IMG/VR virus record: IMGVR_UViG_3300027759_000003
Span: 1 to 64,000 of that record
Length of the DNA: 64,000 bases
Origin: a virus
Reading direction: 5' to 3' (one strand)
Shown here: in pieces, positions 3,279 to 64,000 of the stretch
Layout: each line of letters starts with the position of its first letter
Position numbering within the stretch: the first letter of the stretch is position 1
Notes under the pieces: model-generated
What the model saw: the letters and a program-made list of their open reading frames with translations, nothing else
What the model was told of the DNA's origin: nothing
Database searches by the model: none
Program-made: the position numbers and the translations under genes

Positions 3279-3295
3279 AAGGGGATAGGAGAACT

Positions 3296-51358: not shown

Positions 51359-51387
51359 TTGACTAAGCAATAATCATTTGCTATACT
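51359..51387 (+). promoter_or_regulatory. Consensus-like promoter TTGACT-17-TATACT
   Basis: TTGACT at 51359-51364, a 17-bp spacer, TATACT at 51382-51387, +1 about 51394. A second box (GGGTATACT, ending 51400) sits just downstream. The leader to the ATG at 51418 holds GAGGGG. This is one of the best promoters in the window. Confidence 0.85.
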
Positions 51388-51417
51388 TAAAGGGTATACT
51401 CTGAGGGGATTTTCTAT

Positions 51418-51942
51418 ATGACAGTCTTGGCTGTAGTTCGTCATGAAAATAAAATCTACATGGCTGGTGATCGTGGTGCCTCAGACGATAACACCATCCT
51501 TTCATTAACCTCTCCAAAAGTTTGGAAACTTGGTCCATATTTAATTGGATATGCTGGAGCGCTAGATGGTGAACGTATTCGTTATAATTTTAATCCATAT
51601 GTTCCAGATATAAAAGATTTAGATAAGTTTATGCAAACTAAGTTTATTAAACAACTTAGAGATTTTTATAATAACTGGTGGGTAGATACTACTAAAGAAG
51701 GTGATTTAGGTCTTATTATTTGTGTTAAAGGTCAAATATATGAACACAATGCTATTGATATGTCTTTATCTAAATATAATTTAGATTATTTAGCAATGGG
51801 TTCAGGTGCAGAATACGCTTACGGATATTTAAATGCTACAGAAAAATCTAAGGATCCTCGCAAAAGAGTTGTTGGAGCGGTAAATGCAGCAATAAAATTT
51901 AGTCCATCTTGCATGGGTCCAGTTGACGTGGTAAACATTTAA
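51418..51942 (+). CDS. HslV/proteasome beta-like N-terminal-threonine peptidase
   Basis: 174 residues, the size of HslV (about 175). After removal of Met1 the mature protein begins with Thr1. Asp17 (in YMAGDRGAS) and Lys33 (in TSPKVWKLG) then fall exactly on the catalytic positions of proteasome beta and HslV. A G-Y-A-G turn at 43-46 and Ser128 in LAMGSGAEYAYG match the other active-site loops (Ser129 region). Only four or so bases of leader AU-rich sequence separate an RBS from ATG. It is driven by a consensus promoter and lies after the endolysin. No HslU/Clp-type ATPase is seen. It may make a ring peptidase that works with a host unfoldase, or use the fold for another Ntn-hydrolase reaction. 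The catalytic register is observed; the substrate is unknown. Confidence 0.78.
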   Translation: MTVLAVVRHENKIYMAGDRGASDDNTILSLTSPKVWKLGPYLIGYAGALDGERIRYNFNPYVPDIKDLDKFMQTKFIKQLRDFYNNWWVDTTKEGDLGLIICVKGQIYEHNAIDMSLSKYNLDYLAMGSGAEYAYGYLNATEKSKDPRKRVVGAVNAAIKFSPSCMGPVDVVNI

Positions 51943-51951
51943 GGGTATAAT
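51923..51951 (+). promoter_or_regulatory. Promoter TTGACG-17-TATAAT giving a leaderless mRNA
   Basis: TTGACG at 51923-51928, 17 bp, TATAAT at 51946-51951. It overlaps the end of the peptidase gene. +1 is the A of the ATG at 51958. Confidence 0.8.
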
Positions 51952-51957
51952 TTATAT

Positions 51958-52176
51958 ATGGCAAACTTTGACGATATATTAAAAGATTTACAAGATGAGT
52001 CATCAAGTCTTGATGAGTTTGAGATTTGGTTAACTAACGGAATTGAGCGGGGCTGGGTAACAGAACCGTTTTGCAACACTCATGAAGGAGATCCTTATAT
52101 GAGTGATGAAGAAGCACAAGAATGGGAAGAGGGCGGAGACCCTTGTCAAGTAGTAATTAAAATAAATAACAACTAA
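51958..52176 (+). CDS. Small acidic protein
   Basis: 72 residues, very acidic (EDEEAQEWEEGGD). The C-terminal part resembles short DNA-mimic or regulator-type phage proteins, but no family is recognised. Leaderless start predicted from the promoter directly upstream. Function unknown. Confidence 0.6.
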   Translation: MANFDDILKDLQDESSSLDEFEIWLTNGIERGWVTEPFCNTHEGDPYMSDEEAQEWEEGGDPCQVVIKINNN

Positions 52177-53567: not shown

Positions 53568-53987
53568 ATGGTAAGTTCGTTTGCATTGGATCTTTTTAAG
53601 GATCCATTTTTTATTGGTTTCAATCGTGAATTGGACCGTTTAAGTACAGTACACAATCTAGCAACTCGTCAGGCATATCCGCCATACGATATCTTAAAAT
53701 TAGACGAAGATACATACAGATTATCTTTGGCTGTTGCTGGATTTTCAAAAACAGATATTAATGTTTCAGTAGATAATGGAACATTAATAATTAAAGGTGA
53801 AATAGTAGAAGTAACAGATGCTGAAGTTGTTCATAAGGGAATCGCTGCTCGTAAATTTACTCGCACATTTGCTCTTGGTGAATACATGGAAGTATCTAGT
53901 GCTGAACTTAAGGATGGCATGCTTACAGTTAATATTGTTCGTATTGTTCCTGAAGACAAGAAACCTAAAGTAATTAAAATAAAATAA
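53568..53987 (+). CDS. Small heat-shock protein (Hsp20 / alpha-crystallin)
   Basis: 139 residues. The alpha-crystallin domain spans about 40-135: YPPYDILKLDEDTYRLSLAV, GFSKTDINVSVDNGTLIIKG and the ending LKDGMLTVNIVRIVPEDKK, a classic Hsp20 signature. An ATP-independent holdase for unfolded proteins. Phage copies may help folding or stabilise virion parts; this is inferred. Strong family call. Confidence 0.9.
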   Translation: MVSSFALDLFKDPFFIGFNRELDRLSTVHNLATRQAYPPYDILKLDEDTYRLSLAVAGFSKTDINVSVDNGTLIIKGEIVEVTDAEVVHKGIAARKFTRTFALGEYMEVSSAELKDGMLTVNIVRIVPEDKKPKVIKIK

Positions 53988-57856: not shown

Positions 57857-58066
57857 ATGTTTATTAGAAGTTTGAATACTATGGAAAAAATTATTTCCAA
57901 AAATAATAATTTACTTTGGAATGGTTGGGATGTTATTGATTTAAAAGAATCTGACATTGCAAAAACATCTCCAATGGGTATTAGAGTTAAAGATAAGTGG
58001 TACATCCACAAAGTTTATTCTCCTGGTCGTAATGGGTGGGATATACCAAACAAGTATCGAGAGTAA
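57857..58066 (+). CDS. Small hypothetical protein
   Basis: 69 residues (RBS AGGGGG). Polar, with Trp-rich strands (WNGWDVIDLKESDIA, then KWYIHKVYSPGRNGW). No family recognised. It lies 2 nt before the WhiB gene. Confidence 0.5.
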   Translation: MFIRSLNTMEKIISKNNNLLWNGWDVIDLKESDIAKTSPMGIRVKDKWYIHKVYSPGRNGWDIPNKYRE

Positions 58067-59452: not shown

Positions 59453-59484
59453 AGCCAGTCTAGAAATAGGCTGGCTTTTCTTTT
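59453..59484 (+). terminator. Intrinsic terminator between convergent units
   Basis: An 8-bp stem (AGCCAGTC at 59453-59460 with GGCTGGCT at 59469-59476, one G-U), 8-nt loop, then a T-rich tract. It ends plus-strand transcription just before the stop of the first minus-strand gene. Confidence 0.88.
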
Positions 59485-60520
59485 ATTTGTTTATAATTTC
59501 TAAGTATTTTTGTTTTAATTTATCTATAGAAAAGTTTTCTAAACCAATTGATAATGCTTTTTCTTTAAATTCTTTTTTATTATTATTTTTAATATATCTA
59601 TCAACTATGTTTGCAAATTTATCTGGAACAATATTATAAATATCAACCATTGACTTTGTTCTAAATGATCCTATCTTTGTTGATTCTACTAACCAATCTT
59701 CAGGCAATATTGTATTATTTGGAGATACATTAGTCATAAAAACTGGCAGGGCACTCATAAGAGCCTCATTCATAGGTAAACAAAGACCAGCATACCTTCT
59801 AGGCAGAATCATTGCATCAAAGCCATCATACATGTCTTCCCTACTGGCTGGATTACCTATTTCAATCTTTACCCTAGAATCTTTACAGTTTGTATCAATT
59901 GGGGTTTGGGATTTAATTACTAATTCGTAATCTTCTTTAGAATGCTTGACCATCTCAAAAATACTTTCAGTTCCATTTCTATCTTTTGCAGCCTTTTTAC
60001 CAGCAATATGAAGTATACGGTTGTGATCTTTTGAAAGATTATTGTCTTTTGCTTTATTAAATAAAGACTCATTTGTTGGTGGTGGTAAATGAATTACATC
60101 ACATGCAGAGCCAAACCTTTCTTTTACTATGTCTATATTCCAAAGACTAGGAGATAGCAATACATCTGGTAATGACCAGTTAGGGTTTGTTAAGTTACCA
60201 AAAAGTTCGTAGTTGTATTGAAGAATAGTCTTTGTTCCTTGTTGCCTAGCAAGATCTACAAGGTCTAAATGATAAAAGGTTTCACAACTAATTACTACAT
60301 CAACATCTTTTAAAAACCAAATAATTTCTTTTGTTGTTGGCATACCTCCCCTAGTTGAGTAAAAATTATAACCTTCATACCATTCAGGATGCTGTTTATT
60401 TTTATTAAACGGGGCAGAGTCAATTAAAAGAATCTTATCAGGATTAAGCATATTAACTAACTCTCTAGTCTGATTGCCAAGACCAGTGTTGTCTGATCTT
60501 GCTATGATTCCTAGTCTCAT
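59483..60520 (-). CDS. Glycosyltransferase (GT4/GT-B-like)
   Basis: 345 residues. The N-terminus MRLGIIARSDNTGLGNQTRE and the C-terminal half with DAMILPRRYAGLCLPMNEAL fit a GT-B glycosyltransferase that takes a nucleotide sugar in the C-domain. No membrane helix. It is the last gene of the minus-strand glycan cluster and overlaps the next upstream gene by 4 nt. Likely it glycosylates virion or host surface glycans; the target is unknown. Confidence 0.75.
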   Translation of the reverse strand: MRLGIIARSDNTGLGNQTRELVNMLNPDKILLIDSAPFNKNKQHPEWYEGYNFYSTRGGMPTTKEIIWFLKDVDVVISCETFYHLDLVDLARQQGTKTILQYNYELFGNLTNPNWSLPDVLLSPSLWNIDIVKERFGSACDVIHLPPPTNESLFNKAKDNNLSKDHNRILHIAGKKAAKDRNGTESIFEMVKHSKEDYELVIKSQTPIDTNCKDSRVKIEIGNPASREDMYDGFDAMILPRRYAGLCLPMNEALMSALPVFMTNVSPNNTILPEDWLVESTKIGSFRTKSMVDIYNIVPDKFANIVDRYIKNNNKKEFKEKALSIGLENFSIDKLKQKYLEIINK

Positions 60521-61278
60521 TCTTTATACCCCCAAGTTTCATCGTCTACCGTAAATTTGCGGGTACCTTGACGACCATCTAAATGATAAGAACGTTTAAT
60601 GTTTTCTTCAGGATGATAAATCCAAAGTTTATGAGTCTCCCAACCTTCTTGATTAAACTCCCCATATGGAGATATATCATCTTGAATTGCTCCATGAAAT
60701 GTATCTTCTATAAAAAATTTATCTTTACATCTTGGAAGCACAATGTCTTTATAATATTGTTTTCTACTTAGATGTGGTCGTTGACTCCATTGTATAGTTT
60801 TCATAAACCCATCTTCTAAACCAAACATAAGGTGTTCGTGATCTTTTGGTATAAATGCTTCAAAATGAAAACGAATAGTATTTGCTTTATTGTATTCAAA
60901 CATGTCCAAACATTTATCCCAGTCTATAGGTGTGTCTGGAGTTAATGGAGCGTCTCCTTCAACATAAAGCAATAGTGGTGTTTTAATTTCATTAATTGTT
61001 TTACGCATCATGTTGGTTTGATGGCTATGCTCTTTAAATATAAAAGGTAATATGTTTTTATCTTCATGTAAACATTTCCACAAAATACGATTTTTGTATT
61101 CATCGTAATCTTTTTTACGATCTTGTTGTTCTTCCCTAAGACCATCTATTTGCATAATAATTTCGTTGTCTGGAAAATGAGCACGAACATCACTAATAGT
61201 TTGATCTATCATTTTTGTGCTTGGATGATCTGTAATTACAGAAGTAGCCATGACAATTGTTATATCTTTTTTATGCAT
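60517..61278 (-). CDS. Glycosyltransferase-like protein (GT-A type)
   Basis: 253 residues. The N-terminal Rossmann-like strand DITIVMATSVITDHPSTKMI and later LLLYVEGDAPLTPDTPIDW give a GT-A-type arrangement, with EGDAP in place of the classical DxD (a D-x-D-like acidic motif). C-terminal aromatic-rich part. It overlaps both neighbours, one operon. Substrate unknown. Confidence 0.65.
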   Translation of the reverse strand: MHKKDITIVMATSVITDHPSTKMIDQTISDVRAHFPDNEIIMQIDGLREEQQDRKKDYDEYKNRILWKCLHEDKNILPFIFKEHSHQTNMMRKTINEIKTPLLLYVEGDAPLTPDTPIDWDKCLDMFEYNKANTIRFHFEAFIPKDHEHLMFGLEDGFMKTIQWSQRPHLSRKQYYKDIVLPRCKDKFFIEDTFHGAIQDDISPYGEFNQEGWETHKLWIYHPEENIKRSYHLDGRQGTRKFTVDDETWGYKE

Positions 61279-62125
61279 TTACTTGCCTCATTAATTTAAT
61301 AAAAAGATCTCTTTTATATTTAATCCACCAACAAACAATCTGATGCATTTCAGATGTATAATTATTTAATAGTTCAGGTAACAAGTCAACCAAGTGATTC
61401 CAATTATCAACAGTTTTTACTGAATGATTATCTTCAAATACAAAATTAAAAAAATCTGTATTTTGCATTTTTGAGTCTAACTTATCTCCTATAGGCAAGC
61501 AAAGCATTTCAATTGCTTCATAAAATCTAAATGAATCAATAACCATCGCCCCGCTAGGGCAAGGAACAATCTTTGATAAAGACATTTTGTCATAGTATTG
61601 TTTTGGTTTTAGTCCTTCTGCAAAACCAGTAGTTGGATTATAAAAAGAATTAGGTATGTTAGGCATAACAGTTGCAAGTTCTTGTCTTCGTTGATGAGTT
61701 ATTTGTCCTGAAAAAAATACATCATATGATTTATCTTGATATTTTGGTAAATGTTTATGCAAATCTCTTGGCACACCCAACGCTAATTTATTATATTGCG
61801 AATGTTTTCTGTGCGGGTATTGAACCCAAATCTCAATATTTTTATGTTTTATTTTATCAACTTTAAATGTAGCACTTTCATCTCCAGTAATAAACAAAAT
61901 AACTCTATCTATCTTGTTTAACTCTTCAGATATTTGATCTTCATAGTCTACATTTTGTGGTCCAGGAATAACAACAAAGGCTCTATCTGTGTTAGGTAAG
62001 GTTGTTACCTTATCTGGTTTAATATTATTTTTATTAAAAAATTGTTTTAATAAACCGTAATCCCATTTATCAGCAGCACAGTCTTCTTGTTTAACTGAAT
62101 AAAGATATGCTTTAAGATCGCTCAT
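61271..62125 (-). CDS. Glycosyltransferase-like protein (GT-B, putative)
   Basis: 284 residues from the ATG at 62125 (an in-frame upstream start at 62176 would overlap the methyltransferase by 65 nt). It has a Rossmann-like segment DRVILFITGDESATFKVDKI, then KSYDVFFSGQITHQRRQELA, typical of exostosin/GT47-like glycosyltransferases, and a GAMVIDSFRFYEAIEMLCLP motif near 205. Part of the same operon. Confidence 0.65.
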   Translation of the reverse strand: MSDLKAYLYSVKQEDCAADKWDYGLLKQFFNKNNIKPDKVTTLPNTDRAFVVIPGPQNVDYEDQISEELNKIDRVILFITGDESATFKVDKIKHKNIEIWVQYPHRKHSQYNKLALGVPRDLHKHLPKYQDKSYDVFFSGQITHQRRQELATVMPNIPNSFYNPTTGFAEGLKPKQYYDKMSLSKIVPCPSGAMVIDSFRFYEAIEMLCLPIGDKLDSKMQNTDFFNFVFEDNHSVKTVDNWNHLVDLLPELLNNYTSEMHQIVCWWIKYKRDLFIKLMRQVNA

Positions 62126-62825
62126 AATATAAGTGTACTTCATGTTGATAGTCAAGCAATGTTTCTTTGTAGCCAATACCCTTAATAAACTGTCTTAAAT
62201 CATGCAAATATTCTTTCCAATACATCATCATAAATTCTGGGTGTCCAGATAGCCAAATCTTAGGTTTGTGCTCTCTAAGGACCCTTTCAGCCCCTCCTAG
62301 GACCCTCCATTCACTACCCTCAACATCAAGAGAAATTGCAGTAGGCGGCTTCATTCCTTTTTCATATACAAGCGTATCAATTTTTGTTTGACCATATTTA
62401 TCTGCTTCATACTGCAGTTCTTTAAATCCATGAGCAGCCTCAATAGGAGCATCTGCTTCTGGTGGAAACTCGCCATAATAAATACGTGCAAGTTTATTAT
62501 CTTTATCTGATGCAAACCCAGGAATACATGCAATTGGTTTTTCTAAATTATTAGCACTCCAAAGCAAAGGAAAGTGTGACCAAACCTTTGGATTAGGTTC
62601 AAATAAAACAACTTCTGCTCCCCACATTTGACATAGGGCAGGCATTTCTCCTTCTTCTGCTCCAACATAGTAAACAACATCGCCTTTACCAATATTTTCA
62701 TGCATTGATTTTAATCTAATTTTTTCCCAACCATGTGGTTGATACCATTCTGGTCTATCTGCACGATGCTTTGGTAACATTATTTCAAATTCCCCGTTAA
62801 CAGTAGCCTTAATCATTTCAGTCAT
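62112..62825 (-). CDS. FkbM-family methyltransferase
   Basis: 237 residues. SAM-binding strands GDVVYYVGAEEGEMPALCQM and AEVVLFEPNPKVW, and the typical FkbM end AISLDVEGSEWRVLGGAERV then LREHKPKIWLSGHPEF. Probably O-methylates a sugar of the glycan made by the cluster. Overlaps the epimerase gene by 8 nt. Confidence 0.85.
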   Translation of the reverse strand: MTEMIKATVNGEFEIMLPKHRADRPEWYQPHGWEKIRLKSMHENIGKGDVVYYVGAEEGEMPALCQMWGAEVVLFEPNPKVWSHFPLLWSANNLEKPIACIPGFASDKDNKLARIYYGEFPPEADAPIEAAHGFKELQYEADKYGQTKIDTLVYEKGMKPPTAISLDVEGSEWRVLGGAERVLREHKPKIWLSGHPEFMMMYWKEYLHDLRQFIKGIGYKETLLDYQHEVHLYYERS

Positions 62826-63705
62826 TTTGTATCCACTCTACTAATGATACCTTTGGTATCCATCCAGTTAGATCTTTAAACTTGGCGTTAGAGGCAAGAG
62901 TTTCTTGCACTTCACCAATTCTTGGCGGTATAAATTTAATATCATTTGAAATCATATTAGCAATATCAAGTATAGCGTAGTTACTTCCATACCCAATGTT
63001 ATATACTTCACCAAACCCACTTTTAACTTCAGATGCAAGTATGTTTGCTTGTACTACGTCTGATATATGGGTAAAATCTCTACGCTGAGAACCATCTCCA
63101 ACTACTGTTAGTGGCTTTGACTCATGATGTTGTTTAAAAAATAGTCCTATTACTGGTGCATACTGCCCCTTTAATGGTTGTCTATCTCCGTAAACATTAA
63201 AATATCTAAGCGATATAGTCTTTAATCCGTAAAGGTTGTGATAAACTCTTGCAAGGTTTTCACCAAAGACTTTAGCAGCAGAATATGGGGTTAATGGATC
63301 AGGTGATTGTGTTTCTTGGTTTGGAAGCAAAGCCTTTTTGCCATAAGAAGAGGATGTGCTTGAATAGATTAGTCTATCTACCTTGTTAACCCTGCAAAGT
63401 TCAAGAACATTGGCTGTTCCTACTGCGTTTGATTGAATAGATTTTTTTGGATTTAATATTGCTGGCTGTATTCTTGCATCAGATGCTACGTGAAATACGC
63501 AGTCAACATCTTTAAAGAGTGGTGCAATTAGGTCATAATCACAAATGTCATGCTTATAATTTTGTGCTTTATCATTCCAATAGAACTGCTCATGACATTC
63601 TGCAGACTCATCATCAATGCAAATAACATCGTGACCAAGACTAATTAACTTATCAACAAGGTTTGATCCAATAAAACCAGCACCACCAGTAACTAAATAT
63701 TTCAT
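62818..63705 (-). CDS. NAD-dependent sugar-nucleotide epimerase/dehydratase (SDR)
   Basis: 295 residues from the ATG at 63705, overlapping the stop of the upstream gene by 4 nt. Nucleotide-binding motif MKYLVTGGAGFIGSNLVDKL, active site with Ser in YSSTSSSYG and the Tyr-x3-Lys of PYSAAKVFGE, and RYFNVYGDRQP. A UDP-glucose 4-epimerase-like fold (extended SDR); it supplies or converts the donor sugar for the transferases. Exact substrate unknown. Confidence 0.9.
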   Translation of the reverse strand: MKYLVTGGAGFIGSNLVDKLISLGHDVICIDDESAECHEQFYWNDKAQNYKHDICDYDLIAPLFKDVDCVFHVASDARIQPAILNPKKSIQSNAVGTANVLELCRVNKVDRLIYSSTSSSYGKKALLPNQETQSPDPLTPYSAAKVFGENLARVYHNLYGLKTISLRYFNVYGDRQPLKGQYAPVIGLFFKQHHESKPLTVVGDGSQRRDFTHISDVVQANILASEVKSGFGEVYNIGYGSNYAILDIANMISNDIKFIPPRIGEVQETLASNAKFKDLTGWIPKVSLVEWIQND

Positions 63706-64000
63706 TTTATGTTTAGAGTTTCTAATATGCTTGCCCATCTATGAACATATGTATGTTCTTTTTTAGTCCGCTCATGACCAGCAATCCTTATTTCTTCTCT
63801 GGTTAATCCATCTAAGATGTAGTAATCTATTTTTTGTTTAAGGTCTTCAAGATTACCATGCTCATAAAATATAATTTCTTTACCATCTTCAAAATATTTA
63901 TCAAGTCCTTTGATGCGGGGATAGATAGTAAAACCACCACGACCAGTGCTTTCAAATAGTCTATCGCTTGTATAGTATGGATAGTTAAAGTTTATGTTTA
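63702..64000 (-). CDS. Glycosyltransferase, C-terminal part (5' end cut by window)
   Basis: The frame is open to the right edge, about 98 residues visible. It includes YYTSDRLFESTGRGGFTIYP, then EIIFYEHGNLEDLKQKIDYY and a C-terminal helix. This is the C-terminal motif of GT-B proteins with a Glyco_trans_1_2-type domain. It is the most upstream visible gene of the minus-strand glycan operon and overlaps the epimerase start by 4 nt. Not in frame with anything else. Confidence 0.7.
   Translation of the reverse strand, partial: NINFNYPYYTSDRLFESTGRGGFTIYPRIKGLDKYFEDGKEIIFYEHGNLEDLKQKIDYYILDGLTREEIRIAGHERTKKEHTYVHRWASILETLNIK

Follow-up and report, generated by a model that had tools for sequence, protein, structure and literature searches.

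What a virus does with a peptidase resembling the proteasome is the question raised by a gene at positions 51418–51942 of the DNA analysed here, a stretch of 64,000 nucleotides (the window) from a virus record of 109,757 bases, linear and possibly incomplete. The record encodes a portal protein (7296), a capsid protein (10290), a terminase, DnaB and a UvsX-like recombinase. The likely host is an actinobacterium, to judge by a WhiB-like gene at 58036; WhiB is an accepted actinophage marker (PMC10202952, PMC6802176). The initial annotation described the product as an HslV/proteasome-beta-like threonine peptidase, and proposed a profile search, a structure prediction and an alignment with HslV as checks. 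The features considered are as follows.

51359–51387, plus strand: sigma-70-type promoter of the peptidase gene, TTGACT-17-TATACT, conserved upstream of relatives
51403–51409, plus strand: likely ribosome-binding site, GAGGGGA, read from the sequence
51418–51942, plus strand: proteasome/HslV-like Ntn peptidase gene, 174 aa, starting Met-Thr
51421–51423, plus strand: codon of Thr1, the predicted nucleophile once Met is removed, invariant in all complete relatives
51469–51471, plus strand: codon of Asp17, the same residue in every one of the 29 aligned sequences, Glu in the close relative L064
51517–51519, plus strand: codon of Lys33, likewise unchanged in all 29 aligned sequences
51802–51804, plus strand: codon of Ser128, in a GSG loop, aligned with HslV and corresponding to its Ser124
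51958–52176: gene for an acidic protein of 72 aa, shared by 71 of 80 close loci

Predicted fold and catalytic residues

The coordinates and length first given for the ORF are correct; there is no in-frame start upstream of it, and a GGGGA-like sequence, the likely ribosome-binding site, precedes the gene in the majority of relatives. It is also true that the length equals that of HslV, but this is poor evidence, since the relatives span 171–327 aa. The PHROG 1040 profile ('peptidase HslV family') matches the protein over its whole length (residues 1–174, E = 1.4e-18). Pfam PF00227 (Proteasome) alone falls just under its curated cut-off (20.7 versus 22.4 bits), and a search of the 109,757-base record with this profile gave no match because the score lies below threshold; it is matched by 19 of 22 relatives at E ≤ 0.01, the best at 2.8e-9. 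Among solved structures, the family profile finds HslV (6.7e-12), BPH (2e-10) and proteasome beta (about 1e-8). The AlphaFold2 model (pLDDT 90.3, pTM 0.86) has predicted helices at 50–57 and 68–86, and its best Foldseek matches are HslV (E = 4.3e-11) and BPH, both with E near 4e-11 and TM-scores of about 0.7–0.79, the value for BPH (0.79) being the highest among the PDB matches listed. Profile, predicted fold and conservation together support an alpha-beta-beta-alpha Ntn fold with an intact catalytic register.

The alignment with HslV bears out the register that had been proposed. Mature residues 1–37 align without a gap, and Thr1, Asp17 and Lys33 coincide with the same residues of the E. coli and T. 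maritima enzymes. Ser128, which had been placed at or next to the catalytic serine, is the conserved serine of the GSG loop; among 25 relatives this position is mostly Ser, with Cys in eight and Thr in one. In an alignment of 29 sequences, which takes in HslV and BPH, all rows but one have the Thr, and the N-terminus of the exception is uncertain. In a set of 11 members that includes seven diverged ones, the residues that never vary (counting Met as 1) are Met1, Thr2, Asp18, Lys34, Gly44, Arg81, Gly128, Gly130 and Ala154. The active-site geometry is a predicted one, derived from alignment. One close relative, at 3295–3822 of L064, carries Glu in place of Asp17.

Relationship to known proteasome homologs

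Phage proteasome homologs, named PPH and AAH, were described by Fuchs, Alva and Lupas in 2021 (PMC8665760), and PHROG 1040 holds proteins of T5-like, Vibrio, Psychrobacter, Geobacillus, Moorella, Microbacterium, Arthrobacter and other phages that have the Met-Thr start, Asp17 and Lys33 in common with the peptidase. They are mostly 25–31% identical to it, and it lies in a well-supported clade of its own. The peptidase is a new branch of an already catalogued phage family, and the less surprising because both sources include phage members.

Of the initial description, the threonine Ntn fold with its register is supported, but the protein is not HslV itself. The two share catalytic register, fold and similar length, yet the peptidase scores 21.3 bits with the NCBIfam HslV model TIGR03692, far under the cut-off of 157.75, is separate from HslV in the tree, and comes from a record with no HslU. 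They also differ at positions 28 and 35, which we take to help HslV dock HslU: both HslVs have Lys and Arg there, whereas the peptidase has Ser and Trp. Literature searches for HslU docking residues or for phage expression data yielded nothing usable. BPH, the nearest in TM-score, is about 17% identical to the peptidase. The protein resembles PPH in being phage-encoded, group I-like and without a propeptide, but PPH are about 140 aa long and lack helix H2, whereas the peptidase has 174 aa and two helices there, which sets it apart from PPH. The Caulobacter phage CcrColossus, tried as a PPH reference, gave no match to PF00227. Rhizobium, Sinorhizobium and Streptomyces have relatives of the peptidase, as do phages of Firmicutes and Proteobacteria, in line with what was described for AAH, and this taxonomic spread suggests that the peptidase may belong to an AAH-like group. 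The 2021 survey contained no actinophage AAH (PMC8665760), whereas the virus carrying the peptidase has a WhiB-like gene.

The family is widely distributed. A tblastn search with the peptidase matched 146 phage records, 38 predicted viral structures matched at E < 0.001, and 422 IMG/VR stretches matched the window clade. Plasmids of Rhizobium, Sinorhizobium, Paraburkholderia and Streptomyces also carry relatives, and a Rhizobium plasmid protein is 56% identical to that of a Moorella phage. Stand-alone homologs on a Rhizobium and a Streptomyces plasmid (L104, 5001–5546, and L102, 5001–5543) have no obvious phage genes nearby. Two scans of genome contigs with exact peptide patterns found no bacterial relatives, a result limited by what such patterns can detect, while plasmid records yielded some. 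Members in two Vibrio phages (L087, 6001–6984; L090, 6001–6963) have C-terminal extensions of about 150 aa, which recall the RPC group of Fuchs et al.

The tree joins the window clade to the L095/L100 group (support 99/97), and the sister of the two combined is a clade of Rhizobium, Streptomyces, T5-like and Vibrio members (96/95). Both HslV and BPH fall outside the phage family, on long branches. Since a second set, from Arthrobacter and Microbacterium phages and DSL-LC01, is placed elsewhere, among weakly supported forks, the family is probably represented in phages of Actinobacteria by two or more lineages. It is possible, if rather doubtful, that the window clade forms an actinophage lineage of its own, acquired independently of the second one, that forms rings and degrades protein without an ATPase during takeover of the cell.

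Promoter, selection and gene neighbourhood

The gene lies, as had been noted, after an endolysin gene, which is of the CHAP type and directly adjoins it upstream. Downstream are the gene for the 72-aa protein and, farther on, genes for Hsp20 and thioredoxin. The Hsp20 small heat-shock gene (53568–53987; PHROG 432, 3e-38) is found near the peptidase gene in 63 of 80 close loci. A series of sugar-transfer-like genes, judged by sequence alone, occupies the minus strand at 59483–63738 and includes a nucleotide-sugar epimerase-like ORF (62818–63738). No AAA+ unfoldase, HslU or Clp-type ATPase was found by a P-loop scan of the 109,757-base, possibly incomplete record, in agreement with the initial annotation; the scan matched the DnaB helicase and two repetitive or Ig-like proteins, the latter matches being unlikely to be real.

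The consensus promoter claimed for the gene is present; of the 46 distinct upstream regions of relatives, 39 retain it, with spacers of 16–18 nt allowed, while the spacer sequence varies. The scan alone would be insufficient to establish it, because 14 promoter-like sites were observed against 11.8 expected by chance. The coding sequence is under strong purifying selection: compared with the window gene, dN/dS is 0.03–0.10 at dS of 0.24–1.1 across 46 distinct relatives.

The 72-aa protein has no match in Pfam, PHROG or PADLOC, the last of which gave no defence family. A promoter-like sequence, TTGACG-17-TATAAT (51923–51958), stops 6 nt before the ATG of its gene, the message of which would apparently be leaderless, and the -35 box lies within the final codons of the peptidase gene. 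Of 40 distinct relatives, 38 keep a -10-like box at the same distance, and these take in loci in which the neighbour has moved. The gene is also found in L095, L096 and L099, in none of them adjacent to the peptidase gene. That the 72-aa protein is an obligate partner of the peptidase was rejected, since the two genes are about 4 kb apart in distant loci and the smaller has its own promoter.

Elsewhere in the family, in several unrelated phages (L087, L089, L090, L106, L112 and L113), the peptidase gene lies near genes for ribonucleotide reductase, thymidylate synthase, DHFR, MazG or ThyX. Taken without a background rate, these neighbours lean towards a role in early or middle metabolism over one in morphogenesis.

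Proposed mechanism and alternative roles

The interpretation we favour, and hold to be reasonably probable, is a Thr1-dependent Ntn peptidase, likely ring-forming, that acts in host takeover either with no dedicated unfoldase or with one borrowed from the host. Transcription of the gene, in a virus infecting actinobacteria, would start at its own promoter, and host methionine aminopeptidase would remove Met1, exposing Thr1 to act as nucleophile alongside Lys33 and Asp17. The subunit would most likely assemble as a ring like that of HslV or BPH, because it is compact and has neither a propeptide nor large insertions, and the ring may then cut unfolded or flexible peptides as the host is taken over. 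The new homologs of Fuchs et al. likewise had no co-occurring AAA+ partner, and the same authors caution that some homologs may fail to form rings (PMC8665760).

Another possibility, rather unlikely in our view, is that the Thr1 fold serves as a specific processing enzyme or ligase, perhaps monomeric, acting on one or a few phage or host substrates in the manner of connectase instead of degrading protein in bulk. The superfamily does include connectase, a monomeric protein ligase, along with many homologs of unknown assembly (PMC8665760), and the record lacks an ATPase partner; yet the insertion between strands 3 and 4 that is the signature of connectase is missing from the peptidase, and its compact subunit has a fold nearest to the ring-forming HslV and BPH. 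Cleavage of structural proteins during virion maturation is improbable: this is a phage peptidase with the terminase and endolysin genes less than 8 kb away, but the portal and capsid genes are not adjacent, and the nucleotide-metabolism surroundings seen in several unrelated phages speak against it.

Two further readings appear very improbable. A true HslV, using host HslU or substituting for host HslV, would fit the rank of HslV as top match by profile and fold, but is opposed by the low NCBIfam score, the position outside HslV in the tree, Ser and Trp at positions 28 and 35, the missing HslU, and the 2021 table, in which HslV is unmarked for Actinobacteria (PMC8665760). A catalytically dead relative, kept as a binding or scaffold protein, has precedents in inactive superfamily members such as the proteasome alpha subunits (PMC8665760), and the Glu at position 17 of L064 would be in keeping with it, but Met-Thr, Asp17 and Lys33 are invariant across deep divergence and selection on the gene is strong. 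No genomic context picks out one of the roles initially suggested, which were host protein turnover, virion maturation and the use of a borrowed host unfoldase, and the evidence does not separate host takeover from specific processing or maturation.

For the ring-forming peptidase of host takeover that we favour, the wider significance lies in the family. Phage proteasome homologs are widespread, yet literature searches found no paper reporting activity for one. The peptidase brings viruses of Actinobacteria into a family for which the 2021 survey had no actinophage AAH. Strong selection, a conserved promoter of its own and a clean catalytic register make the window clade well suited to a first test of whether viruses use an ATPase-free compartmental protease.
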